This document shows, piece after piece, positions 41,364 to 62,733 of a stretch of 64,000 nucleotides of DNA. The notes below the pieces were generated by a model. The model worked only from the letters and a program-made list of their open reading frames with translations. It did no database searches and was not told the DNA's origin. A program made the translations under genes and the position numbers. The DNA is from Peredibacter starrii (GTDB lineage: Bacteria; Bdellovibrionota; Bacteriovoracia; Bacteriovoracales; Bacteriovoracaceae): NCBI RefSeq assembly GCF_034259205.1, contig NZ_CP139487.1, positions 1,364,001-1,428,000 on the forward strand, given 5' to 3'. Position 1 is the first letter of the stretch. Each line of letters begins with the position of its first letter.

Positions 41364-41731
41364 GGGGGTGCCCAGGTTTCGACGGGGGATTAGAAGGATT
41401 GAGTGCGTGCAGTGGTTGATCGACAGGCCACTTCAAAAGTCGATCACTTGTTAATCGGCAACGATTACGCAATGGCTGCTTAATTAGAACTAAGTTTTAA
41501 TTAACGTCTGAGGGGCCAGCACCGATAACAAAAAGCTGGTAAAGAGGTTGGGTGAAACCTCGGAAATCTAAATCACCGGGAGATTTGGCGTGAAACTCTT
41601 TAAAAACAACGACTGTCTGCTGGTTCAGTAAAGATCAGAAATAGTATCAGTACTAACTTACTGGAGACGCACGTGGGACTCTCTACTGGAAGGTCTTTCG
41701 GACGTGGGTTCGATTCCCACCACCTCCACCA
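41364..41731 (+). ncRNA. ssrA: tmRNA (ssrA)
   Basis: 368 bases, one-piece tmRNA. The 5' GGGGGTG pairs with CACCTCC near the 3' end, followed by A-CCA, and the T-arm GTGGGTTCGATTCCCAC is present. The mRNA-like part encodes a resume codon GGC and the tag GNDYAMAA ending in TAA at 41483, an unusual Met in place of the usual Leu before the last two alanines. Rescues stalled ribosomes. The last 17 bases serve as the integration core for the element to the right. Followed by a terminator at 41743. Confidence 0.95.
41715..41731. other. attL core, 3' end of the tmRNA gene
   Basis: The 17 bases TCCCACCACCTCCACCA at the tmRNA 3' end are repeated exactly at 57032-57048, the pattern left when a tyrosine integrase inserts at a tmRNA and restores its end. 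Confidence 0.8.
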
Positions 41732-42020: not shown

Positions 42021-42374
42021 ATGAAAATTATCAAAAAGAAAACCAGAAGATCAGACACCAAGGTCATGACAAAAGATGCCCGAATCTTGAAGTTTCTGCG
42101 GGAGTCTCGAAATCTTTCTATGAGGCAGGCCGGACGCTTAATCGGGAAGTCTGATGCCATTGTAAATCACGCAGAGAACGGAAGATTAGATTTAACGCCT
42201 CAATTAATTTTGAAGCTTCTAGGAGCTTATGGGTACACCTATGAGGAATTTCAAAAAATGCAGAGCGATGAGTTTTCGGTCCCTGAGCATACCCTTTCTG
42301 AATGCATCAGAATTTTACAACGCCTAAGCCCCGCAAAGTTAAGAACCATCAAAAACATTTTGGAGTCCTTCTAA
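42021..42374 (+). CDS. XRE-family HTH regulator
   Basis: 117 residues with a GAGGAGG ribosome site. The helix-turn-helix is ILKFLRESRNLSMRQAGRLIGKSDAIVNHAENGRLDLTPQLILKLL (residues about 22-67). The final TAA overlaps the ATG of the chimeric gene, so both are translated together. First gene of the element, reading inward from attL, and probably controls excision or transfer. Confidence 0.82.
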   Translation: MKIIKKKTRRSDTKVMTKDARILKFLRESRNLSMRQAGRLIGKSDAIVNHAENGRLDLTPQLILKLLGAYGYTYEEFQKMQSDEFSVPEHTLSECIRILQRLSPAKLRTIKNILESF

Positions 42375-43768
42375 TGATTAAATACGATGAAGCCAAGAAG
42401 TTATATCGAGTGAGCTATAGCCGAAGACATCCTGTTACTAAACAGGCGACAAGTCTTACCAGGACAGGAATTAAGACCATGGAGGAAGCTAAAAGAACCT
42501 ATAACGAACTCATCATTAAAATGGAACAGAAGTTTAATCGCTCTCTTTTTCCATTATGGCCCGAGATCGTAGATCGGTTCATAGAGCATTTCAGAAATAG
42601 AGGAATCGCTAATAATACTGTTTATAACTATAAAACAGGCCTCTATTCCCATACCGTTCCGAGATGGGAGAAGAAACAAATAAATGAGATCACAACTTCA
42701 GATATTAGGGAGCTTGTCTTAGATGGTCTTGGTCACAAGTCTGAGGCTTTAAGGAAAGACATCCTAAAATATATTAGGGCCACTTTCACCTATGCTGTGG
42801 ACATGGGAATTATTCAGCGAGATCCAACTCCTAAAATAAAGTCCATTTCCCTTAATCCTTTGATGGAGGGAACTGTTAACCAAGTGGTTGATAGGATCAT
42901 GAGGTCATTTGATTGGTCAGAACCATACTATCGAGATGCTTCAAGGAGAAGTTTAACCAAGGCCTTGCAAAAACTTGAAAAGGATGGTGAAGGCTTTACT
43001 CTAAAGAAGGTCTTCGATGAATTGGTGCGACTCGAGAGCAAAGAGAATATTGGGCTTATTGCTAAAATTGAGGCGATTCTTGTTTCAGACTTCGGAAAGA
43101 TTCTAAATTCTGATGGGCCAGATGCGCTCACTCTATCAAAAATACGTGATGAAAAGGCTTGCCTGTATATAGGTTTATCTACTCAAGGCTATGGAGAAAC
43201 GGCTACAGCGGTAGGGAAACTCTTTTTAGGGGAACTTCTTTATAACTCCTATAAGACATTATCAAAAGAGGACTCCAAGGGATTGGAAAATCCGATTAGT
43301 ATTTATTTTGATGAATTTGGCTCTCTTGTTACTCCTGAGTTCATCGAATTACAAAATAAGTGTCGTGGTGCCGGAATGGAACTTACCCTTGCTGTTCAAA
43401 CGGCATCCGATATAGACCGAGTAAATCCAGACCTAACCAAACAGGTTATCGAGAACGCCGGAAATCTTTTTATCCTTAAACAAAGACTTGATAGCTCAGC
43501 CTCACTTTTTGCAGATGCCGTTGGAACAATTCTCGCTAAGAAGCAAACCTACAGAATTGAAAACGGTGAGCAACAAAAGTCAGGAAGTGAACGTGAAGTT
43601 TATGAGCTTATCGTTCACCCGGACATTATTAAGAACCTTGGAATAGGCCAGTGTGTGCTTTTAAGGCAAGGGCCCACAAGGGTTAATATGATCAACGTGA
43701 GGAATAGAAGATGGGATGTCCTCAGGAAAGATAACGCTGCCAAACACTCGGCACCTTCAATTGTCTAG
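42374..43768 (+). CDS. Chimera: integrase N-terminus fused to TraD/VirD4-like coupling protein C-terminal half
   Basis: 464 residues from the ATG overlapping the preceding stop; an upstream in-frame ATG lies inside the XRE gene and is rejected. Residues 1-155 are an integrase-type arm and core-binding domain (KTMEEAKRTYNELIIK, FIEHFRNRGIANNTVYNYKTGLY, ITTSDIREL) and resemble the start of the intact integrase at 45589. From about residue 160 the sequence is that of a TraD/VirD4-like coupling ATPase (NPLMEGTVNQVVDRI, Walker B FDEFGSL at 312, AVQTASDI). Both the integrase catalytic domain and the coupling protein's membrane part and Walker A are missing. Probably a deletion fusion, without coupling function. 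Confidence 0.8.
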   Translation: MIKYDEAKKLYRVSYSRRHPVTKQATSLTRTGIKTMEEAKRTYNELIIKMEQKFNRSLFPLWPEIVDRFIEHFRNRGIANNTVYNYKTGLYSHTVPRWEKKQINEITTSDIRELVLDGLGHKSEALRKDILKYIRATFTYAVDMGIIQRDPTPKIKSISLNPLMEGTVNQVVDRIMRSFDWSEPYYRDASRRSLTKALQKLEKDGEGFTLKKVFDELVRLESKENIGLIAKIEAILVSDFGKILNSDGPDALTLSKIRDEKACLYIGLSTQGYGETATAVGKLFLGELLYNSYKTLSKEDSKGLENPISIYFDEFGSLVTPEFIELQNKCRGAGMELTLAVQTASDIDRVNPDLTKQVIENAGNLFILKQRLDSSASLFADAVGTILAKKQTYRIENGEQQKSGSEREVYELIVHPDIIKNLGIGQCVLLRQGPTRVNMINVRNRRWDVLRKDNAAKHSAPSIV

Positions 43769-43788: not shown

Positions 43789-44523
43789 ATGGATAAAAGA
43801 ACCAATATCAACAGTCTTCATCTCAATTACCTTACGCCGCTTCATAAGTGGAGGGTCATGGATGTTAATTCACTAAGGAAGGAGTGTTTGCGTGCGCCGA
43901 ACTACCATAATTTTTGTAGGGTCATCAGAAAGCTTGAAAAAGATAAAATTCTTGAGGCATACCGAGACCCATATTCTCGCAAGAAATTTGTCTTTCTCGG
44001 CCCAAGCGGAGAACGCTTGCTTTCACTCAAAGACAATCCGACGGCCATTTCAAATGAGACAGTGATTCACGATCTAAGGGTTTCTGAGATTACTCACCGT
44101 CTCTATGACTCTGGCCTTGTGGACGATGTGGAACTGGAACATGAAATCAATGACAAAAGAAATTTTAGAACGATCTATAAAATCATTCCAGACGCCATTC
44201 TTCACCTTGAGAAAAATGGGCACATGTACAAGATTGCTTTTGAGCTGGAGCTGAATCGTAAAAGTAATTCAAGAATCACTGAGAAAATGAAGCAATACGA
44301 GGACAGCACATTCTACAACTACGCCATGTATCTCTTTCCGACAGAAAAGATGATGGAAACATACATGAAGGAGGCAGAAAAAGAGCTTGGCTCTACCTCA
44401 ATGAGCAAATTCATGTTCTTCTGTCACCCTGAGCTGTCGTCTGGAATTCATAAGCCTTCTGAGATTAAAGGAGTGCTTCAGGGGAAAAAGATTACCTTGG
44501 ATGATGTCTTGAGAAGAAATTAA
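43789..44523 (+). CDS. Replic_Relax-family protein
   Basis: 244 residues with the family layout: winged-helix start (LHKWRVMDVNSLRKECL, FCRVIRKLEKDKIL), then HDLRVSEITHRL, IIPDAILHL and FELELNRKSNSRITEKMKQYE. These proteins accompany relaxase or replication functions on mobile elements and often lie beside a coupling ATPase, as here. AAGGAGG six bases before the ATG. Acts near the origin of transfer or replication; the large hairpin lies right after this gene. Confidence 0.75.
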   Translation: MDKRTNINSLHLNYLTPLHKWRVMDVNSLRKECLRAPNYHNFCRVIRKLEKDKILEAYRDPYSRKKFVFLGPSGERLLSLKDNPTAISNETVIHDLRVSEITHRLYDSGLVDDVELEHEINDKRNFRTIYKIIPDAILHLEKNGHMYKIAFELELNRKSNSRITEKMKQYEDSTFYNYAMYLFPTEKMMETYMKEAEKELGSTSMSKFMFFCHPELSSGIHKPSEIKGVLQGKKITLDDVLRRN

Positions 44524-45588: not shown

Positions 45589-46788
45589 ATGGCAATAAGT
45601 GAGTGGACAGGACCCAAAGGTGAAAAGGGTTATTCTGTTTATGTAAATCTTCGTAGTCGTCCAATGCCACATTTACGATTTCAGAAACGCGTGACGGGCC
45701 TTAAAACAATGGCTGAAGCTCAGAGAACTGAGAAGGCACTGGTCAAGGAACTCACAATGAAAGTGGCTCAGGGTGAGGGGCATGGTTTCACATGGCGAAT
45801 GGTTGTTGATAAATGGGCCACTTTTGTAGATTCTCCATATTTCATGGATAGGAAGTACAACCCTGCTACTGTTTCTGATTATGTATCGATGATGCATACC
45901 TGGACAAAGGACTGGCTAGATACGCCTGCAGCCGATATCAGCCGTGGTGATGGCCGAGAGGTACTAGATAGAGTCTTAGCCCAGGGACGGACCAAAGCCT
46001 TTCAGAAACGATTGAAGAACACCATCAACATGATTTTCAATTGGGGAATCGAATCAAAGATCATTCGGGGAGTAACTCACTCCCCAGTCTTTGGTTTGAA
46101 GATTGTTTTAAAAGAAGACAAGAAGCCGGAGATTTTGAAGTTGGAAGAGATCCGACAGCTGCTAAAGGAGGCCAGAGATAAGAATCATCCTTGGTATCCG
46201 ATCTGGGCTGTGGCCCTTCTCACGGGGATGAGGAACGGTGAATTGTTTGCACTAAAGTGGAGTGATGTAGATTTAGAGAAGGGGCTGATTACGGTTCAGC
46301 GTTCATACAATAAGAGGACGAAGGAGTTTAAGAGCACCAAGGCGGGATACTGGAGGACAGTGCCAGTCTCACAAGAGCTAAAACAGCTTCTGCTCCCTCT
46401 TCGTCAGCAGCAGCAGCACAGAAATCACCATACTCATAGTTGTGGTGGCGGCGAAAGTGGAGATCATGGTGGTGGTGGTTTTACCGGCAGTCGCGGTGGT
46501 GGTCGTGACTCAGTTGGTTTGGATTTTGTTCTTCCCCGTATTGAAATGTGGGTCCAGGGTGCACAGGCTCGGGTTTTGAGAGAATTCTGTGTTTTAGTTG
46601 GTTTGAGTCCCATAAAGTTCCATACCCTGAGGGCCTGCTTTGCGACTCAACTCATTTCATCAGGGGTAGAACCAATTAAAGTGATGAAGGTTTGTGGGTG
46701 GATGGATTTAAAAACGATGGCTAGGTATGTGCGTCTAGCGGGAATAGAGGAAAAAGGTGTGACCGAGCATATTAAGTTGCTCCATTAA
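45589..46788 (+). CDS. int: Tyrosine recombinase (integrase) of the element
   Basis: 399 residues. N-terminal arm domain (GYSVYVNLRSR...KTMAEAQRTEKALVKEL), core-binding domain and catalytic domain with the active-site set R (TGMRNGELFAL), K (STKAGYWRTV), HxxR (HTLRACFATQL), W in place of the second H (CGWMDLKTM) and Tyr (ARYVRLAGI). Between beta strands and the HxxR box there is a low-complexity stretch of about 35 residues rich in Gln, His, Gly (nt about 46400-46510). Inserts the element at the tmRNA 3' end. Immediately downstream of the excisionase-like gene. Confidence 0.9.
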   Translation: MAISEWTGPKGEKGYSVYVNLRSRPMPHLRFQKRVTGLKTMAEAQRTEKALVKELTMKVAQGEGHGFTWRMVVDKWATFVDSPYFMDRKYNPATVSDYVSMMHTWTKDWLDTPAADISRGDGREVLDRVLAQGRTKAFQKRLKNTINMIFNWGIESKIIRGVTHSPVFGLKIVLKEDKKPEILKLEEIRQLLKEARDKNHPWYPIWAVALLTGMRNGELFALKWSDVDLEKGLITVQRSYNKRTKEFKSTKAGYWRTVPVSQELKQLLLPLRQQQQHRNHHTHSCGGGESGDHGGGGFTGSRGGGRDSVGLDFVLPRIEMWVQGAQARVLREFCVLVGLSPIKFHTLRACFATQLISSGVEPIKVMKVCGWMDLKTMARYVRLAGIEEKGVTEHIKLLH

Positions 46789-47723: not shown

Positions 47724-48395
47724 ATGATGCTAGAGAAGCTTAAAAGCAAATTTTCGAAGGGGACTTTCAGCTCTAAGGATGCTGAGGCACTTGGAATAAG
47801 TGCGCGCATGCTTACTCATCTTTTTAAGAAAGGTGAGATACAAAGAATAAGTCGAGGCCTTTATGCACTGGCTGGAGTTGATCCAAGTGGTGAAGACTGG
47901 AAATATTATGATCTGGCCGTAACTGCGAGTTCATATAAAGACGCAGTTATTTGCCTCATCTCGGCTCTCTCTTACTGGGAGGTCACAGAAGAATTTGCTC
48001 GTTCCTTCTGGCTTGCCTTTCCAAACAATCATCCCCCAATAAAAAATTCGATGGTGAGAATGATTCGACCGAGAAATCTAGAACTCGGAATAATTAAAAT
48101 TCAACTTTCTGGAGTCGTGGTTAAAATCACAGATCCGGAAAGAAGTATTGTGGATGCCTTTAAGTATTTGGACGAAGAAAGTTCTGTTACAAGTCTTAGA
48201 ATGTATCTAAATCAAGAAGAATCAAAAATTAATATCGTGAAGCTTGTTAATTACGCAGTGACACTTAAGGAAGTTAAGCTTCTAAAAATTCTAAAAGACA
48301 TAGCGTCTGCACAGGCAAAGTCTTACCCATCCCTTAAAGGAAAAGCTTTTAAGGATACGATTAAAGAGATTTCAAAAATTAGGGAACACGCATGA
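47724..48395 (+). CDS. abiEi: AbiEi-type antitoxin of a type IV toxin-antitoxin system
   Basis: 223 residues. The N-terminal winged helix (FSSKDAEALGISARMLTHLFKKGEIQRISRGLYAL, residues about 14-49) and the AbiEi C-terminal half with PERSIVDAFKYLDEE fit the family. It represses its own promoter by binding inverted repeats and neutralises the AbiEii nucleotidyltransferase. The stop TGA overlaps the toxin ATG. Two repeats of the operator type lie directly upstream. Confidence 0.85.
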   Translation: MMLEKLKSKFSKGTFSSKDAEALGISARMLTHLFKKGEIQRISRGLYALAGVDPSGEDWKYYDLAVTASSYKDAVICLISALSYWEVTEEFARSFWLAFPNNHPPIKNSMVRMIRPRNLELGIIKIQLSGVVVKITDPERSIVDAFKYLDEESSVTSLRMYLNQEESKINIVKLVNYAVTLKEVKLLKILKDIASAQAKSYPSLKGKAFKDTIKEISKIREHA

Positions 48396-49213
48396 ACGAG
48401 GAACAAATCAAAGCACGCCTTGTCGCAATAGCAAAAGATCAAAAGAAGACATTCAATGATCTGTTGAAGCCGTTATCCTTTGAGAGATTGCTGGCAAGGG
48501 TTGCAGTGTCTCCTCATCGCAGCAAACTCATCTTTAAAGGAGGACTTTGCTTAAAGCAATTTATTGATGGAGGAAGAGAGACGATTGACATTGATTTTCT
48601 CATTAGAAGAGTTGCAGCAGAAGCTGGAGTCATAGAGCAAGTTTTTAAAGAGATTTTAGCCAACGAACTGGATGACTCTTTTAAGTTTTCATTTATAGAT
48701 TGTGAGCAATTGGACGTTCAGAGCAAAAAGTATCCTGGATATAGAATCAATATACAGGTGAACCTTGGTAAGACTAAAGATCGCTTGCAGGTCGACCTGG
48801 GAATCGGTGATGTCGTTGATGAATTTGAAATGGAGTTTGATGTCCTCCAGTACAAAGGGGAGCCACTTATTAGTCAGGGAGGAGTTAGTATTCTTGCATA
48901 TCCTCCAGAGTTTATTTTCTCTGAAAAACTTCAGGCTATTATTGATCTTGGTGCCCTTAATTCAAGGATGAAAGACTACTTTGATTGTCATGTCTTAATT
49001 ACAAAAGGTGTACTTGATGAAGAGAAAGTTGTTTCCGCTATTCAGAAGACATTTCAAAATAGGAAAACAGAACTCAAGAAAATTGAACCCGCTCAGGAAG
49101 AAATGATAGGCCTTTGGTTGTCCTTCCAGAGGAAGGTTCCTGTTGCTCCGAAGGACATTTCCGAGGCGATCAACGCAATCAATGGATATCTTGTTAAAAT
49201 TGGACTCGTTTAA
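48392..49213 (+). CDS. abiEii: AbiEii/AbiGii-type nucleotidyltransferase toxin
   Basis: 273 residues. The toxin signature is KGGLCLKQFIDGGRETIDIDFLI (GG and R-x-T-x-DxD, residues about 50-72), the nucleotidyltransferase active site, followed by ILAYPPEFIFSEKLQAI. These toxins block growth on phage infection by acting on tRNA. It starts inside the antitoxin stop. The pair provides phage defence and keeps the element in the cell. Confidence 0.88.
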   Translation: MNEEQIKARLVAIAKDQKKTFNDLLKPLSFERLLARVAVSPHRSKLIFKGGLCLKQFIDGGRETIDIDFLIRRVAAEAGVIEQVFKEILANELDDSFKFSFIDCEQLDVQSKKYPGYRINIQVNLGKTKDRLQVDLGIGDVVDEFEMEFDVLQYKGEPLISQGGVSILAYPPEFIFSEKLQAIIDLGALNSRMKDYFDCHVLITKGVLDEEKVVSAIQKTFQNRKTELKKIEPAQEEMIGLWLSFQRKVPVAPKDISEAINAINGYLVKIGLV

Positions 49214-49310: not shown

Positions 49311-49688
49311 TCAATTAGATTGTTTCTCGTCCCGTTCAGGGAAGAGAGTTTGAATAGCCTTAAGAATTTCCTCGATATTGGGTGGTTTTCTTAAAAATAA
49401 GTCCCACTCAATTTTAACATTCTGATGCATAAGACCTGCGCTAGATAAGATTATTTTTACCTTTTTATCACCGTGTATCTCACGGATTGATTTTATCATC
49501 TCTACGCCGCTCATAAGAGGCATCATATTGTCAGTAATAATCAAATCAGGTTTAGACTTCAGATAAACCTCGATTCCAGATTTTCCATCATAGGCCGACT
49601 CCACTTTGTAACCTTCCATTTCCAGCAAGTCTCTGATTATTTCTGCAATTTCGGTTTCGTCATCGATGACAAGTATTTTTAGAGTCAT
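49311..49688 (-). CDS. Receiver-only response regulator
   Basis: 125 residues, a bare CheY-like receiver: acidic pocket VIDDETE, phospho-acceptor in LIITDNMMPLMSG (residue about 53), Ser in ILSSAG and Lys in LRKPPN. No output domain. Its ATG overlaps the stop of the upstream KaiC-like gene (four bases), so the two are translated together. The same pairing repeats at 52035/52403. Its last residues (FPERDEKQSN) are a short tail. Confidence 0.87.
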   Translation of the reverse strand: MTLKILVIDDETEIAEIIRDLLEMEGYKVESAYDGKSGIEVYLKSKPDLIITDNMMPLMSGVEMIKSIREIHGDKKVKIILSSAGLMHQNVKIEWDLFLRKPPNIEEILKAIQTLFPERDEKQSN

Positions 49689-51136
49689 TCCTTCTGACTC
49701 CTCTCAATTTTATAATTTGAAACTTTATCAAGAGAAAATGTTTCGGGGTTAACAAAGACCCCATCTGCTGAGATCGTGAACTCTCTAACGCTCGTATCGT
49801 ATTCACTTTCTCTTGCTTTCATAATTGATATGAGTCGATGGAGATTGTAATTTACTTCTTCGAAGCGAAGAGAGATAAGGTTTTCGAACAAAGCTGAATG
49901 TTCTCCAAACTTCAAGATAGTTTCGTAGTTAAAAGAGGCTTCTTCTGTTACAATTGTTGTAGCACCACTGTCCCTTAACTGAAGACTTAAGGCTGCCATA
50001 TAAAATGATAATCTGTCAGGAAAAGCAGAAGACATTTTCATTCCATCTATCCCATCGACCAAGACTCTAGCAGCTTTATGTTCAGTAATAGATTTGATGA
50101 GAATTTCTGAAAGCTCGTCTAGAAGATTTTCCGTAGGAGGAAACCATAAAATGATTAGCTTTTTACTTTTCACGTATGATGAAAGATCCAAACCTATAGC
50201 ACTTGCCTTTGATAAAATTTGATCAGGCTTTTCATAAAAGCCAAAATATAGACAAGTTTCGCCACTCTGAAGCCCTTCTTTTAGAAAATTTAGGCCTATG
50301 ATGGTCTTACCTGATCCAGGTGGCCCAATGATTGATGTTATAGATTTAGGTATAATTCCGCCATCAAGCATTTGATCCAGGTTGGTAATTCCAAATTTAA
50401 ACTTATTGGATTTTGAGTTTACCGAAATTTTCTGTGGGTCTCTTGCCTCTGTACGGGGAAAGAAGTTCAGGCCATTTTCATCGATTTTAAAAACATGCTT
50501 TCCTTGCTTCTGCTTCAAGCCGCGCATTTTATAAATTTGAATTTCACGAATCGCTCTTAGTCCAACGTCAGCGTTACTCAATTCAATGATCCCATCAACT
50601 AAGCCTTCGAGGGAAGTTGAAGACTTCGGATAGGTTGGCTGATTCAAAATTAAAATAGTACATTCAGTTGTACTTGCGAGTGCACTCAGTTCATGAATAA
50701 AAGTCGCGACTTCCATTTCGCCTGACGAAAAGCTATTCGCAATTCGAAATCCGTCAATGACCATGAACTTTAATTTTGAATCATGAATGACCTTTGTTAA
50801 ATAATTTCTGAAGGCCGTCAATTTACCCTCTTTCAGTGTCTGGTATGCCCCATAGAAAAAGATGCAGCTCCCGATTATCTTCTCATCAAAGAAGTTGAAC
50901 TCTCCGATGTGGTCGAGCATTTTTCCATGCGACTCAGCCAGTAATGTAATAAAAGCAGCATGTTCTTCTGAATTTGCGAGGTTAAATAGAACCTGATTGG
51001 CTAAGATGGTTTTTCCTGAGCCCGGAGGACCTTCGATCAAGTAGATACTACCTCTAACGAGTCCTCCGCCGAGAACTTCGTCAAAACCTTTTATGTTTGT
51101 TTTTATTATCTTTTTTAAAAGTAATTCTCTTGGCAT
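49685..51136 (-). CDS. KaiC-like protein with two RecA domains, copy 1
   Basis: 483 residues with two RecA/KaiC domains: Walker A GPPGSGKT at residues about 36-43, and a second GPPGSGKT near residue 265, with Walker B-like FMVIDGF and VLVDGIDGM. Domain 1 has LLAES where KaiC has the catalytic Glu pair, while domain 2 keeps a Glu (FYEKP). Unlike KaiC there is no KaiA/KaiB nearby. Expected to be an ATP-driven signalling switch working with the receivers on either side. Same strand as the two receivers. Confidence 0.82.
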   Translation of the reverse strand: MPRELLLKKIIKTNIKGFDEVLGGGLVRGSIYLIEGPPGSGKTILANQVLFNLANSEEHAAFITLLAESHGKMLDHIGEFNFFDEKIIGSCIFFYGAYQTLKEGKLTAFRNYLTKVIHDSKLKFMVIDGFRIANSFSSGEMEVATFIHELSALASTTECTILILNQPTYPKSSTSLEGLVDGIIELSNADVGLRAIREIQIYKMRGLKQKQGKHVFKIDENGLNFFPRTEARDPQKISVNSKSNKFKFGITNLDQMLDGGIIPKSITSIIGPPGSGKTIIGLNFLKEGLQSGETCLYFGFYEKPDQILSKASAIGLDLSSYVKSKKLIILWFPPTENLLDELSEILIKSITEHKAARVLVDGIDGMKMSSAFPDRLSFYMAALSLQLRDSGATTIVTEEASFNYETILKFGEHSALFENLISLRFEEVNYNLHRLISIMKARESEYDTSVREFTISADGVFVNPETFSLDKVSNYKIERSQKE

Positions 51137-51193
51137 CTTTTTTCCTCTCGAAAAGGAAAATGCAATTTTAGAACCATACTTTTGAATTGGGAT

Positions 51194-51559
51194 TTACTTT
51201 GAGCTATCTTTAAGGAGCTTTGCAACGACTTCGAGCATATTGTAGATATTAAAAGGTTTTTTAAAAAAGTAATTCCACTCAGGTTTACGAGCAGGATCTG
51301 GAGCGCCGCCAGCACTCATCAGTATATAGGGGGTAAGATGGTACTCAGGAAGTGTCCGAATTTGTTCTAATGTGTCGTATCCATTCTTAAACGGCATCAT
51401 GATATCACTAATGATTAGGTCTGGTTTTATCTCAGAAAGACGATCAAGGGCTTCCTGTCCATTCTGAGCAATCACTACCTCATAGCCTTCGTCAGAGAGA
51501 AGCATTTCTAGTGTGCTGGAAATATCATATTCGTCTTCTATTACGAGAATTTTCGCCAT
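51194..51559 (-). CDS. Receiver-only response regulator (KaiC operon)
   Basis: 121 residues with VIEDEYDIS, LIISDIMMPFKNG (phospho-acceptor), LMSAGG and FFKKPF. No output domain. It lies 57 bases upstream of KaiC-like copy 1 on the same strand, so that ATPase is flanked by two different receivers. It is diverged from the paired receivers at 49311 and 52035 (different tail region, KPFNIYNMLEVV). Confidence 0.85.
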   Translation of the reverse strand: MAKILVIEDEYDISSTLEMLLSDEGYEVVIAQNGQEALDRLSEIKPDLIISDIMMPFKNGYDTLEQIRTLPEYHLTPYILMSAGGAPDPARKPEWNYFFKKPFNIYNMLEVVAKLLKDSSK

Positions 51560-51638
51560 TGATTCCCAATTTTATTGTTTTTAAGGATTTTTACAGGCGA
51601 GAGGTAATTGATGTAAACTCGTAGAGGGTAGGGAATTT

Positions 51639-52008
51639 ATGCACAATATCCTTGTAGTGATGATGAATATGACATCAGTTCAACTATAGAAATGTCCTTG
51701 AAATAGAAGGCCATTCTGTCTATTTGGCAAGAAATGGTGTATAGGCTTTAAATCTTCTATCCACTATGAATAGACCAAATCTCATAATAATGGACATCAT
51801 GATGCCATTTATGGGTGGAGTGGAATGTTTGAAATTAATTCGTCAAAATGCAGATTTGAAGCAGACTCCTGTTATTCTAATGAGCGCTGGGATCAGGCCA
51901 ATGTCAGAGAGTGGAGATATGACTTACTTTATTAGTAAGCCTTTCAATTTATATAAGCTTCTAAATTTGATAAATAATATTCTTGATTCTTCCCATGACG
52001 GAAGATGA
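51639..52008 (+). pseudogene. Decayed receiver-domain gene
   Basis: Only the second half, from an ATG at 51766, is intact (NRPNLIIMDIMMPFMGGVEC to ISKPFNLYKLLNLI). Upstream the first half can be read from ATG 51639 as HNILVV, then in the next frame DDEYDISSTIEMSL, then in a third EIEGHSVYLARNGV followed by a stop and ALNLLST, so there are two frameshifts and one stop. Closest in pattern to the receiver at 51194. Lies on the other strand between two receiver genes. Confidence 0.75.
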
Positions 52009-52034
52009 AAAGATTTTTAGACCTTTAAAACTTT

Positions 52035-52406
52035 TTATTGATCGGCACCAGCGTGCTGGAATAATTTTTGGATTGCTTTGAGATAATCATCAATATTTGG
52101 AGGTTTTCTTAGAAATAGGTCCCATTGAACTTCTGCACCTAAGTGCTTTACTCCTGCACTGGATAAAATAATTTTCACATTATTGTCTTTGTACTCTTCT
52201 CGTATCTTTCTAATCATACCTAAACCATCTAGCACAGGCATCATCTGATCTGTGATAATGAGATTGGGCTTTATTTTTAGATATGCTTCAAGACCAAGCT
52301 TCCCATTATACGCTGTCGTTACAGTGTGCCCTTCCAGTCCAAGCAATTCCTTAACTAGTTCTGTGAGATCTTTTTCGTCGTCTACGACGAGAATGTTTAA
52401 ACTCAT
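52035..52406 (-). CDS. Receiver-only response regulator, paired with KaiC-like copy 2
   Basis: 123 residues with VVDDEKDLTE, LIITDQMMPVLDG (phospho-acceptor), ILSSAG and LRKPPN; the DLFLRKPPNI...LKAIQ block is the same as in the 49311 product. It overlaps the preceding KaiC-like gene by four bases. Together they repeat the 49311/49685 pair. Confidence 0.87.
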   Translation of the reverse strand: MSLNILVVDDEKDLTELVKELLGLEGHTVTTAYNGKLGLEAYLKIKPNLIITDQMMPVLDGLGMIRKIREEYKDNNVKIILSSAGVKHLGAEVQWDLFLRKPPNIDDYLKAIQKLFQHAGADQ

Positions 52407-53845
52407 AACGTTCTCGGATTCTTATGTTCCACAACTTCATCTGCGAAGAAAGAATTTTGGTTCACGTCGATACCCTGAGAAGAGATTGAAAACTCTCTTG
52501 AACTAGTATCATATGGACTTTCTCTTACCTTCAAAATTGCAATCAATCTATGAAGTTTGGAAAATACATTAACATATCTAAGAGAAATTATATTTTCTAT
52601 TAATGCAGAATGCTCACCTTGCTTAAGTGATAAATCGTTGTTGAAGGAGGTTTCTTCTGTCAAGAGAGAAGTTGCACCACTGTATCTCAAAAGAATGCTT
52701 AAAGCCGCTACATATTTCGAAAATCTTTCTGGATAAACCGAAGACATTTTGATGCCATCAATTCCATCAACAAAAACCCTTGAAGCACTATGTTTTGTAA
52801 TGAGATTCATTAGCGTTTCTGAAATCTCGTCGATTAAGTTTTCTGTTGGAGGACACCAAAACACTATCAATCTTTGGTTTTCCAGATAAGGAGTAAGATC
52901 TATGCCTATACTTGCAGCTTTTGTTACTAGTTGAGAGGGTTCTTCATAAAATCCAAAGAAGACACAAGTTTCTCCAAGCTTCAGACCTTCTTCGAGAAAT
53001 TTTAAACCAAAAAATGTTTTTCCTGATCCTGGAGGGCCAATCAAGGATGTGGTGGAGCCAGCTTTGATTCCTCCAATCAACATTTCATCAAGACACTTTA
53101 TTCCGAATTTAAGATTACTATGTGAATTTTTGAAGATGGATCTTCCCATTTTTCGCGATTCTGTTCGAGTAAATATTTTAATCCCGTCAGCAGAGATATT
53201 AAATACGTGATGGCCTTTATTCTGATCCAAGCCACGCATTTTATAAATTTGTATTTCGCGAATTGTCCTAAGACCGGTATCAATTAATTTCAATTCGATG
53301 ATGCCATCAACTAAAGCTTCTAAAGAAGTTGGGCTTAAGGATTTTGTTCCTTGGTTGAGGAGTAGTAGCGTACATCCAGTGGTACTGGCCAGGGCACTCA
53401 ATTCATGAACAAATCTTGCGGATTCCGTTTCTACAGAAGAAAAATAATCAACGATTTTGAAGCCATCAATAACAATGAACTTAAGGTTTTGGGCATGTAT
53501 AAGATCAACCAAGAATTTTCTTAACGCTGCTAATTTTCCCGCCTCAAGAATGTGATATGCACCATAATAAGATATATCAATTCCTACTTTTGATTTGTTG
53601 AAGTAATTCATCTCACCAATGTGGTCCAGCATTTTGCCATGCATTTCTGCGAGTAAAGTAATAAATGCGGCAGGGTCTTTCGGGGTGGCGAGATTAAAAA
53701 TGATTTGATTTCCGAGAATTGTTTTTCCTGAACCAGGAGGGCCATCTATCAAATAAATACTTCCTCGGATAAGTCCTCCACCTAGTATCTCGTCAAGACC
53801 ATGCACTTTAGTCTTTATTATCTTTTTTTTTAATTCATTAGGCAT
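52403..53845 (-). CDS. KaiC-like protein with two RecA domains, copy 2
   Basis: 480 residues, clearly homologous to copy 1 along its whole length, with GPPGSGKT in both domains, LLAEMHGKMLDHIGEMN in domain 1, FYEEP in domain 2 and VFVDGIDGIKM. Starts with KKKIIKTKVHGLDEILGGGL. Overlaps the receiver gene that follows. A PAS kinase lies 140 bases upstream on the same strand. Role as for copy 1. Confidence 0.82.
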   Translation of the reverse strand: MPNELKKKIIKTKVHGLDEILGGGLIRGSIYLIDGPPGSGKTILGNQIIFNLATPKDPAAFITLLAEMHGKMLDHIGEMNYFNKSKVGIDISYYGAYHILEAGKLAALRKFLVDLIHAQNLKFIVIDGFKIVDYFSSVETESARFVHELSALASTTGCTLLLLNQGTKSLSPTSLEALVDGIIELKLIDTGLRTIREIQIYKMRGLDQNKGHHVFNISADGIKIFTRTESRKMGRSIFKNSHSNLKFGIKCLDEMLIGGIKAGSTTSLIGPPGSGKTFFGLKFLEEGLKLGETCVFFGFYEEPSQLVTKAASIGIDLTPYLENQRLIVFWCPPTENLIDEISETLMNLITKHSASRVFVDGIDGIKMSSVYPERFSKYVAALSILLRYSGATSLLTEETSFNNDLSLKQGEHSALIENIISLRYVNVFSKLHRLIAILKVRESPYDTSSREFSISSQGIDVNQNSFFADEVVEHKNPRTL

Positions 53846-53984
53846 GGCAAATACTCCTACAAATATGCATGCAACATCATGGCCTTTTTTGTTGGCTTTA
53901 AATGATTAATATTTGGAAATTTATTTGGACATGTTTCTACGCGGCTGTGGCAGATAGGGATTTATCATAGAGTGAATCACTCTT

Positions 53985-55373
53985 TTATGGGGAAACATTG
54001 TGATCTTTGGAGTTTTTCATAGCGTAAATTGGAAGTTCTACAGTAAAAGTGGAGCCTTCATTTAGCTTACTATCAACATGAATCTTACCTCCATGTGCCT
54101 CTACAAATTGCTTCGTAATATAAAGTCCCAGACCCAGCCCACTTACTTCGTCTTGTGAGGCCACTCGCTCGAACTGGTCGAAGATTCTCTTATTGTCGAC
54201 CTCCGCGATTCCAATTCCTTCATCGCGAACAGTCAGAAGCCCTTTGTCGCCCAGCTTAGATATTCTAATATAAATGGGGTTCCCTTCTCCATATTTCATG
54301 GCGTTTGTAAGAAGGTTCGTAACTACCTGTTCAATGCGGTGGCTATCCCATTGGCCAACGACTCTTGCAGCTGTATCTAAATTGATATCAATTTCTGAGC
54401 TTTCGAGCAGCGGTCTAAATCTATTGACTACCTCGAGGACGACTGCTCCAAGATCTGTTTCTTCAATTGAAAGCTGAAATTTTCCCGTTGCGAGCCTCGA
54501 AACATCAAGCATATCATCTACCAGACGGATCAGACGATTCAAGTGTCGCTCATCATCATGTAAAAGGGCGGGAATGCGCTCTGGCGAGAATTCATCTAGA
54601 TTTCCCATTTCAAATTTGCGCTTTCTGAGTTGCACTTGAAGCCTAAGCGAGGAAAGTGGTGTTTTTAGTTCGTGGGAAGCGAGGGATAAAAATTCGTCAC
54701 GAGCTTTAATCGCATCCCTCAAATCCTTCTCCGTATTCTTGATTTCTATGATTTTCACCCGAAGTTTCTCATTCGCATCTTGCAATTCCTGAGAATGCCT
54801 AAGAATATCGAATTCCATCTGACTCGTCTTATGTTGGAGATCTTCTGTTAATTTATCTTTTTCCATCCCGAGTTGCTTTAAGCGAACATAATCAGTCACA
54901 TCTTCAACTTTATGTATGATGACATGAAGCCGGCCGTTAGAATCCTGCACAGGCGTATTTGCCGGACTCCAATAACGCTCTTCAAATCCTCCACCCTTAG
55001 AGGCAGGAAGGCGGATATCATATTTCTGGACTGCCATGGCGTCGGGGGCCTTGGTCTTGATAACTCTATTCAGAGATGCACGAAGATTATTTACCCCGGT
55101 TGCTTTCAAGTCCTCGGGATTGTCTGGGAATACTTCAAAAAGTCCACGTCCTACAATTTCTTCTCGCTTTGTCATGGTTGCTTCTGCATATGAGTTACTT
55201 ACCTCGACGATAGTAAAATTCTCGTCAGGTAAAAGAACCAAATACATTCCAGGAGCGGATACAAAAAGGGCGCGGTAATCGAGGTCGAATTCAGCCTTTT
55301 GATTTAACTGTGAATGAGATGATATATCGTTTCTGTTTTCGGGTTCTCCCATCTTCGCATTATGAGAGTTCAA
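53985..55373 (-). CDS. PAS histidine kinase of the island
   Basis: 462 residues with no membrane segment. A PAS domain ([20 protein letters not shown] to [11 protein letters not shown], residues about 30-165), a coiled-coil linker, HisKA (phospho-His in [10 protein letters not shown]) and HATPase (N box [12 protein letters not shown] boxes DEGIGIA and GLGLGLY). The kinase core resembles that of the chromosomal kinase at 15911. It is upstream of the KaiC-like copy 2/receiver pair on the same strand and is their likely phosphodonor. Confidence 0.85.
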
Positions 55374-55633
55374 AAAATGACTGTCAAATGTGGTGCCTCA
55401 ATGCAGAGAACTTAAGTGAGTCATGTCGATATTAATTCACGAAGTGAAGTACGTAGATTAATAAATTGTGAAATATTATGGATAAATAATGAAAAAGCTA
55501 ATGTGCGCAAAATCGTACTGTCTGTAGCTTCTTATGCATCTCATTTTGACTTCCCAGCCTGACCTTCCGAAAATGCATTTAACTCTTATGAGAAGATAAT
55601 AGTTACATTGAGCGAATAGAGGAAATATTTCAA

Positions 55634-56821
55634 ATGCCACAACTAGAAGAAGCAATGTATCGATCAATTTATGGGCAAATGCTTCTAGATAACCGCAAAA
55701 AATTGTTAGCTCTATTCATTCAGAAAGTGCGGCAAACAATGCCATCTGCAAAGACTCTCGATGATAGAACGCTTGAGAATAGTTTATTTGAATTTATAAC
55801 ATCTATTGCAAAAATTATTTCTTTGGAAGCAGACTTAGATAATTGGGATCTATTCAAGGAGAATGTTGAAGCATCACGTGAACATGGAAAGTCACGCGCT
55901 AAAATAGCTAGTTATACTCTGGATCAGGTCATCTCTGAATTTCGTTTACTTCGCTCCTTAATCTTTTCAGCTTTGGAGGAAGATGGAACTTTTCCAGCTA
56001 TTGAGAGAGATAAAATATTATTCGCTATCGATAACGGAATGACTCAAGCAGCTACAGAGTTTGCCTACGAAAGAGGCTTCAAAGATGCTCGGCTCTCTAA
56101 AGAAATATCTGCAAAGAACTTGGCCTTGGATGAAGCGAATTTTCTTAGGAATGAACGTAAACAAAGAGAGACATTTTTCTCCACCGTGACCCATGATATG
56201 CGAAATCCTCTCTCCATCATCAAGTCCAGCGCAGAAATGATAGTCAAACGACCGGATGATCTTCCAAGTGTTCTCAAATATGCAAATAAGATCATAAAAA
56301 ATATTGATAGATCTAATGTCATGATCAAAGACCTTCTAGATAGTAAGATGTTAAGAAGTGGTGGAAAACTTTCATTGCAGAAGGTGGAATGTGACCTTGG
56401 AAGCATAATCAAAGAGACATGTGAAGATCTATCAGAGGTATATGGACCTCGATTTAAAACTGAAAAGATCCCAACAGTAAAAGGTAGGTTTGATTGCAGC
56501 GGCTTGAAGAGAGCCCTGGAAAATCTCATGATAAATGCAATAAAATACGGGGCTCCAGATAAACCAATAAAAGTTTCCCTAAATCAAACTAAAACTGAAT
56601 TATGTATTCAGGTACATAATGAAGGCAATCCTATCCCATTAAAGGATCAAGCCTCTCTTTTCGAGTACTACCATAGATCGAATGTTCAAAATGGGTCTCA
56701 ACTGGGGTGGGGGATAGGTCTGACTTTAGTCAAAGGTATAGCCGAGGGCCATGATGGTAAAGTTGAAGTGAGAAGCTCAAAGGATGAAGGAACCACTTTC
56801 TTTATTATACTTCCCATTTAA
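55634..56821 (+). CDS. Soluble histidine kinase with RsbRD-like N-terminal domain
   Basis: 395 residues with no membrane helix. Residues about 15-150 look like an RsbRD_N globin-like sensor (DNRKKLLALFIQKVRQTM...VISEFRLLRSLIFSALEEDG), then HisKA with TVTHDMRNPL, N box ENLMINAIKYG and G box GWGIGLTLVKG. GAGGAAAT precedes the ATG. Divergent from the PAS kinase and last gene of the element before attR. May feed the receivers of the island. Confidence 0.83.
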   Translation: MPQLEEAMYRSIYGQMLLDNRKKLLALFIQKVRQTMPSAKTLDDRTLENSLFEFITSIAKIISLEADLDNWDLFKENVEASREHGKSRAKIASYTLDQVISEFRLLRSLIFSALEEDGTFPAIERDKILFAIDNGMTQAATEFAYERGFKDARLSKEISAKNLALDEANFLRNERKQRETFFSTVTHDMRNPLSIIKSSAEMIVKRPDDLPSVLKYANKIIKNIDRSNVMIKDLLDSKMLRSGGKLSLQKVECDLGSIIKETCEDLSEVYGPRFKTEKIPTVKGRFDCSGLKRALENLMINAIKYGAPDKPIKVSLNQTKTELCIQVHNEGNPIPLKDQASLFEYYHRSNVQNGSQLGWGIGLTLVKGIAEGHDGKVEVRSSKDEGTTFFIILPI

Positions 56822-57031: not shown

Positions 57032-57048
57032 TCCCACCACCTCCACCA
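57032..57048. other. attR core
   Basis: Exact 17-base copy of the tmRNA 3' end (TCCCACCACCTCCACCA), followed 15 bases on by a strong terminator that was presumably the host's original tmRNA terminator. Confidence 0.8.
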
Positions 57049-62425: not shown

Positions 62426-62547
62426 TGATGAGTCCTACTTATTTCTTTCTAAAGCACTTCGAAACCGAAGGATTTACACCTGTTCGCTTCTCCTGCCACT
62501 TGCTTGCTCAGAGATTGGGAAGTAGCCTGAGGGGCCAGCACCGATAA
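62425..62547 (+). pseudogene. Short frame cut by the tmRNA copy
   Basis: ATG ATG overlaps the aminotransferase stop (TAATG). It reads MMSPTYFFLKHFETEGFTPV then RFSCHLLAQRLGSSL and then runs into the tmRNA copy at 62527, ending at 62547. The coupled start and coding look suggest a gene truncated when that copy arrived. Could also be chance. Confidence 0.3.
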
Positions 62548-62733
62548 CAAAAAGCTGGTAAAGAGGTTGGGTGAAATCTCGGAAATCTAAATCACCGGGA
62601 GATTTGGCGTGAAACTCTTTAAAAACAACGACTGTCTGCTAGTTCAGTAAAGATCAGAAATAGTATCAGTACTAACTTACTGGAGCCGCACGTGGGACTC
62701 TCTACTGGAAAGTCTTTCGGACGTGGGTTCGAT
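62527..62733 (+). ncRNA. Partial tmRNA copy (3' part, not functional)
   Basis: 207 bases, colinear without gaps with 41508-41714 and with four mismatches seen. It lacks the 5' half, the tag sequence and the last 17 bases (acceptor end and CCA), so it cannot work as a tmRNA. The repeat stops exactly where the 17-bp integration core begins. Remnant of an earlier integration or duplication. Confidence 0.85.

Follow-up and report, generated by a model that had tools for sequence, protein, structure and literature searches.

The 64,000-nt stretch of Peredibacter starrii DNA analyzed here ("the window"; host genome, 4.15 Mb) carries, on an element integrated at the tmRNA gene, two KaiC-like ATPase genes that are each directly followed by a gene for a single-domain receiver, an arrangement that is conserved across several phyla and is found on several kinds of mobile carriers. 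We give a probability of about one in two to the reading that this cluster is a duplicated kinase/receiver/KaiC module, in which a kinase phosphorylates the receiver and the receiver then switches a KaiC ring. In such a module, one or both of the encoded histidine kinases (HK1 and HK2) would phosphorylate a single-domain receiver at Asp53, and the receiver would dock on the ring of its partner KaiC, setting its ATPase or conformational state. The predicted ring would be the output, binding further targets, and the whole module would ride as cargo of the integrative element.

The first pair consists of KaiCa (positions 49685–51136, minus strand; two PF06745 matches, 239 bits, against a Pfam cut-off for this KaiC family of 26.6 bits) and the receiver RR1 (49311–49688, minus strand; PF00072, 78.6 bits), in which the acceptor Asp53, the Ser, and Lys101 are present. 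The second consists of KaiCb (52403–53845, minus strand; two PF06745 matches, 227 bits) and RR3 (52035–52406, minus strand; PF00072, 60.8 bits). At each junction, the two genes share exactly 4 nt. A third single-domain receiver, RR2 (51194–51559, minus strand; PF00072, 69.7 bits), lies upstream of KaiCa and shares 39% identity with RR1, and a decayed receiver lies on the plus strand (51640–52008), with its N-terminal half frameshifted and its C-terminal half open (51766–52008); its nearest relative is RR2 (44%). HK1 (53985–55373, minus strand), with a PAS-HisKA-HATPase architecture in Pfam, is located 139 nt from KaiCb, and HK2 (55634–56821, plus strand), an RsbRD_N-HisKA-HATPase protein, is divergently oriented. 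The first-pass annotation had described two double-RecA ATPase/receiver pairs with 4-base overlaps, accompanied on a tmRNA-integrated element by a third receiver, a decayed receiver, and two histidine kinases; the coordinates, the Pfam matches, and a 17-bp repeat (see below) confirmed all of these. KaiCa and KaiCb share 62% identity and are sisters on the KaiC tree (support 100), and RR1 and RR3 share 56% identity, indicating a genuine duplication of the whole pair.

Passages of De Luca et al. 2011 (PMC3164672) sort bacterial kaiC genes into three contexts: kaiBC, kaiC-HK, and a third ("black") context in which a receiver gene often follows kaiC. KaiCa and KaiCb, each directly preceding a single-domain receiver, have the gene order of the third context. 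GTDB species genomes were scanned with a profile and the 80 best KaiC loci were kept; they came from Pseudomonadota, Myxococcota, Bdellovibrionota, Chloroflexota, and Acidobacteriota. In 78 of these loci, the gene directly after KaiC encoded a receiver, whereas each of the remaining 500-bp bins in the flanks held 0–4 receiver domains, and at one of the two exceptions (L081) the contig terminates at the KaiC stop codon. A start codon giving the 4-nt overlap with the KaiC stop was available in 52 of 92 pairs. The distance matrices of KaiC and receiver were correlated (r = 0.80, 67 pairs; 0 of 2000 permutations as high), a mirror-tree value that contains shared species history, for which the comparison of paralogs controls in the myxobacteria only. 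In the paralogous pairs of Corallococcus and Archangium, each receiver was nearest to the receiver of the orthologous KaiC in other species (82–95%), and paralogous receivers within the same genome shared only 34–49% identity. On the KaiC tree, the receiver-paired KaiCs, including those of the window, formed a single clade (support 99; 66 of its 68 rows paired), separate from the KaiBC and KaiC-HK types, the purity of this clade being partly due to sampling because the 80 loci were chosen by their likeness to the query profile. Co-conservation of the pair in other genomes, the check suggested in the first-pass annotation, was thus borne out. The distribution within Bdellovibrionota is patchy: 8 of 291 genomes matched a receiver-paired KaiC at E ≤ 1e−50, and one of these matches (L161) is a KaiC-kinase locus without a receiver. 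At another locus (L158, genome G197), KaiC is broken up, other ORFs separating its first fragments, and the receiver remains open. When the neighboring genes were clustered in search of a constant third partner, nothing clear emerged apart from PAS proteins and kinases, and the largest cluster appears to consist of shadow ORFs.

Across the 92 pairs of the clade, the residues of an active ATPase are retained: the Walker A motifs, the Walker B Asp, and the catalytic Glu68 are conserved in 100%, the catalytic Glu302 in 96%, and the K-x-R motifs of the two domains (K203/R205 and K440/R442) in 99–100%. The AlphaFold single-chain model of KaiCa (pLDDT 90) has a double RecA-like fold and matches KaiC structures over its full length (approximately residues 2–475; Z 36–38, rmsd 3–4). 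A double-domain ATPase with conserved catalytic residues would also suit a minimal hourglass or circadian timer acting without KaiA or KaiB, and the passages cited above (PMC3164672) suggest an hourglass for those KaiCs of the kaiC-HK context that lack KaiB. We nevertheless regard a timer as highly improbable, for several reasons. In the alignment, both window KaiCs carry Ser-Ala at the positions equivalent to 431 and 432, in other words, the Ser431/Thr432 pair is absent; a phosphorylatable residue occurs at both sites in only 21 of the 92 clade members, and Ser-Thr in 1. The KaiCs of the third context are likewise described as having mostly one or no phosphorylation site, and the same source (PMC3164672) judges that a KaiC unable to phosphorylate two residues would probably not support cyclic timing. 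Furthermore, the absence of KaiB, which had been seen in the window, extends to the genus: KaiB (PF07689) was found in 0 of 26 genomes (the host and 25 congeners), and the Synechococcus elongatus positive control was matched. With KaiB absent and paired Ser/Thr autophosphorylation sites usually missing, the window module is not a KaiABC clock. The receiver residues behave differently from the KaiC sites, with D53 present in 92 of 92 receivers and K101 in 98%. Because the acceptor Asp is invariant and the phosphorylation sites of KaiC are not, it is probably the receiver, and not KaiC itself, through which phosphorylation exerts control.

The two-component parts list is complete in the window: both kinases have HisKA and HATPase domains, and the receivers have the acceptor Asp and the Lys. 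HK1 occupies the upstream position that is usual in kinase-KaiC-receiver operons, and its kinase core is of the type seen upstream of KaiC in myxobacteria and proteobacteria. The closest relatives of the window KaiCs (47–48% identity), from two genomes of the same family (G073 and G230; loci L156 and L157), belong to compact HK-KaiC-receiver operons with overlapping gene ends. RsbRD_N, the N-terminal domain of HK2, is rare (genomes of the genus hold approximately one match each), and kinases with this domain adjoin the KaiC-receiver loci L026 and L080, the L080 match being slightly below the Pfam cut-off. Like the window, L026 has two KaiC-receiver pairs in tandem and a divergent RsbRD_N kinase, its last receiver being truncated by the contig end. 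On the tree, the two KaiCs of L026 are neither sisters of one another nor of the window KaiCs, indicating that doubling of the pair arose more than once. The suggestion that a kinase stays with the pair therefore held in part: it often does, as in L156 and L157, but only 25 of the 80 sampled loci had a HisKA-type kinase at a distance of 4 kb or less (19 directly upstream on the same strand), a count that probably overlooked HWE-type PAS kinases. Control by a kinase may thus often originate elsewhere.

The main rival to the module proposed above reverses the direction of signaling, with KaiC acting upstream: its nucleotide or phosphorylation state would control the kinase, as clock KaiC does with SasA, and the receiver would deliver the output by protein contact, in the manner of CheY or DivK. 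Elsewhere in the same genus, KaiC genes directly precede a kinase gene (L029–L038), most of them without an adjacent receiver, and the kinase core of HK2 is of this KaiC-HK-context type, which adjoins most KaiCs within its own phylum. KaiC-interacting kinases were proposed for the kaiC-HK context in the passages of De Luca et al. 2011, where co-transcription of one such pair (Rta_04330/Rta_04340 of Ramlibacter tataouinensis) is reported from RT-PCR (PMC3164672). The near-constant partner in the receiver-paired clade, however, is the receiver, with HisKA kinases nearby in the minority of loci counted above, and the N-terminus of HK2 matches RsbRD_N and no KaiB/SasA family. We give this reversed direction a lower but appreciable probability, and continue to prefer a receiver that acts on KaiC.

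The cluster occupies the right end of an element flanked by a repeat. The tmRNA gene (41364–41731, plus strand) ends in the 17 nt TCCCACCACCTCCACCA (att core, 41715–41731), which recur as an exact copy at 57032–57048 (plus strand), for which the probability of a chance match in 64 kb is of the order of 1e−5; this repeat delimits an element of approximately 15.3 kb. The genes given below with coordinates in the element are on the plus strand. At the left end is an HTH gene (42021–42374) conserved in the tmRNA elements of sister species, followed by a gene (42302–43768), a deletion remnant, in which the N-terminal portion of a tmRNA-site integrase continues in frame into a TraG/TraD C-terminal domain. 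Unbroken relatives of this integrase (350–374 aa) are present in the sister-species elements L198 and L199, and the fusion suggests that conjugation genes were lost by deletion. A Replic_Relax protein (43789–44523; PF13814) is a mobilization remnant, and the element also encodes a tyrosine integrase (45589–46788; PF00589), a single-strand-binding protein, and an AbiEi/AbiEii type IV toxin-antitoxin pair (47724–48395 and 48392–49213). L198 (genome G004) and L199 (genome G009) have near-identical left ends with the HTH gene and the intact integrase, and their cargo consists of type I restriction-modification genes. The tmRNA site is therefore a hotspot of integration and cargo exchange in the genus, and since these elements share the left end and differ in cargo, the best interpretation is that the KaiC cluster is cargo that can be exchanged. 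Outside the element, positions 62527–62733 hold a 207-nt near-copy (approximately 98%) of tmRNA nt 145–351, which stops exactly where the att core starts, and the core itself does not follow. A tmRNA copy with identical borders occurs in a congener (G010, C86:10682–10889), approximately 34 kb from its tmRNA.

Movement of the pair as cargo, which had been inferred from the window element, is seen also on plasmids and prophage-like contigs. PLSDB contains 287 plasmid records with a KaiC relative, 119 of them typed as conjugative; the receiver follows KaiC in 7 of the 7 top-scoring plasmid loci scanned (L041–L047), and the 287 are not all receiver-paired because the set also holds KaiBC and KaiC-HK loci. 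A profile search of IMG/VR found four contigs with a full-length KaiC relative, all four with a receiver; a search of viral contigs with one query sequence found no KaiC relative. On a 62-kb IMG/VR record with a terminase (L204), the pair lies between tail-fiber and O-acetyltransferase genes and an integrase, and on another (L205) it lies 2.4 kb past lambda-type tail genes; in gene order, these pairs are placed as accessory cargo of the predicted prophages would be. PHROGs contains a matching ATPase family, phrog_6891. Matches in phage GenBank records were rejected as KaiC; those listed covered at most approximately 30% of the query, and the annotated ones were DnaB-like DNA helicases. The suggestion that such pairs lie on tmRNA elements did not hold beyond the window: at nine related Bdellovibrionota loci, there was no tmRNA and there were no relatives of the element's other genes. 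The best reading is that tmRNA elements are one carrier among several rather than the usual one.

These carriers also bear on whether the cluster is a defense or counter-defense cassette on a defense-loaded element. The AbiEi/AbiEii pair, the restriction-modification cargo of the sister elements, and the prophage-like contigs bearing the pair are all consistent with such a role. We consider it very unlikely, since matches of PADLOC models to KaiC and the kinases were weak and mostly confined to short stretches, many pair loci are on large chromosomal contigs, and neighbor clustering gave no recurring defense neighbor. Its presence on plasmids and prophages as well makes the pair look like a portable signaling switch, not a clock, and its carriage by three kinds of element suggests a module useful to many hosts. 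More tentatively, such pairs may form a portable, phosphorelay-controlled ATPase switch with which prophages, plasmids, and integrative elements alter their hosts, duplicated copies forming mixed KaiC rings under several receivers.

Many bacterial KaiC homologs occur without KaiB, and their roles are largely obscure. A 2024 study of myxobacteria found every kaiC homolog of two species to be expressed, their function being unstudied (PMC11832031). In the literature searched, from which subscription journals were mostly missing, we found no experimental or biochemical test of a KaiC-receiver pair and no relevant link between KaiC and Bdellovibrio. If the receiver is a fixed partner, what controls a KaiC outside clocks can be tested directly with two purified proteins.

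Among known systems, the KaiABC-SasA clock and the bacterial KaiBC-HK operons (such as that of Cereibacter sphaeroides, L151) have the double-domain fold and ATPase residues in common with the window, which differs from them in being without KaiB, in having a receiver as partner, and in belonging to a clade usually without the phosphorylation-site pair. The kaiC-HK operons, as in R. tataouinensis, resemble the window in having KaiC without KaiB, and similar pairs occur elsewhere in its genus; they couple KaiC to a HisKA kinase, whereas in the window a receiver directly follows kaiC and the KaiCs fall in a separate clade. In archaea, where KaiC proteins act as hubs, KaiC-REC fusions are reported from Methanosarcinaceae (PMC5847659, in a passage citing Makarova 2017), so that KaiC is coupled to REC there by fusion and here as separate, overlapping genes. 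The closest likeness is to the third kaiC context as those passages of De Luca et al. 2011 describe it (PMC3164672), in which the genes are ordered in the same way, kaiB is not adjacent, KaiC has at most one phosphorylation site, and kinases are nearby. The layout, for which the first-pass annotation knew of no described system, is thus already known. The window differs from that description in its two diverged tandem pairs, its extra and decayed receivers, its two kinases of different lineages, and the location of all of these on an integrated element; what the present analysis adds to those passages is the strength with which the pair is conserved, its several mobile carriers, and a doubled form that recurs together with an RsbRD_N kinase.
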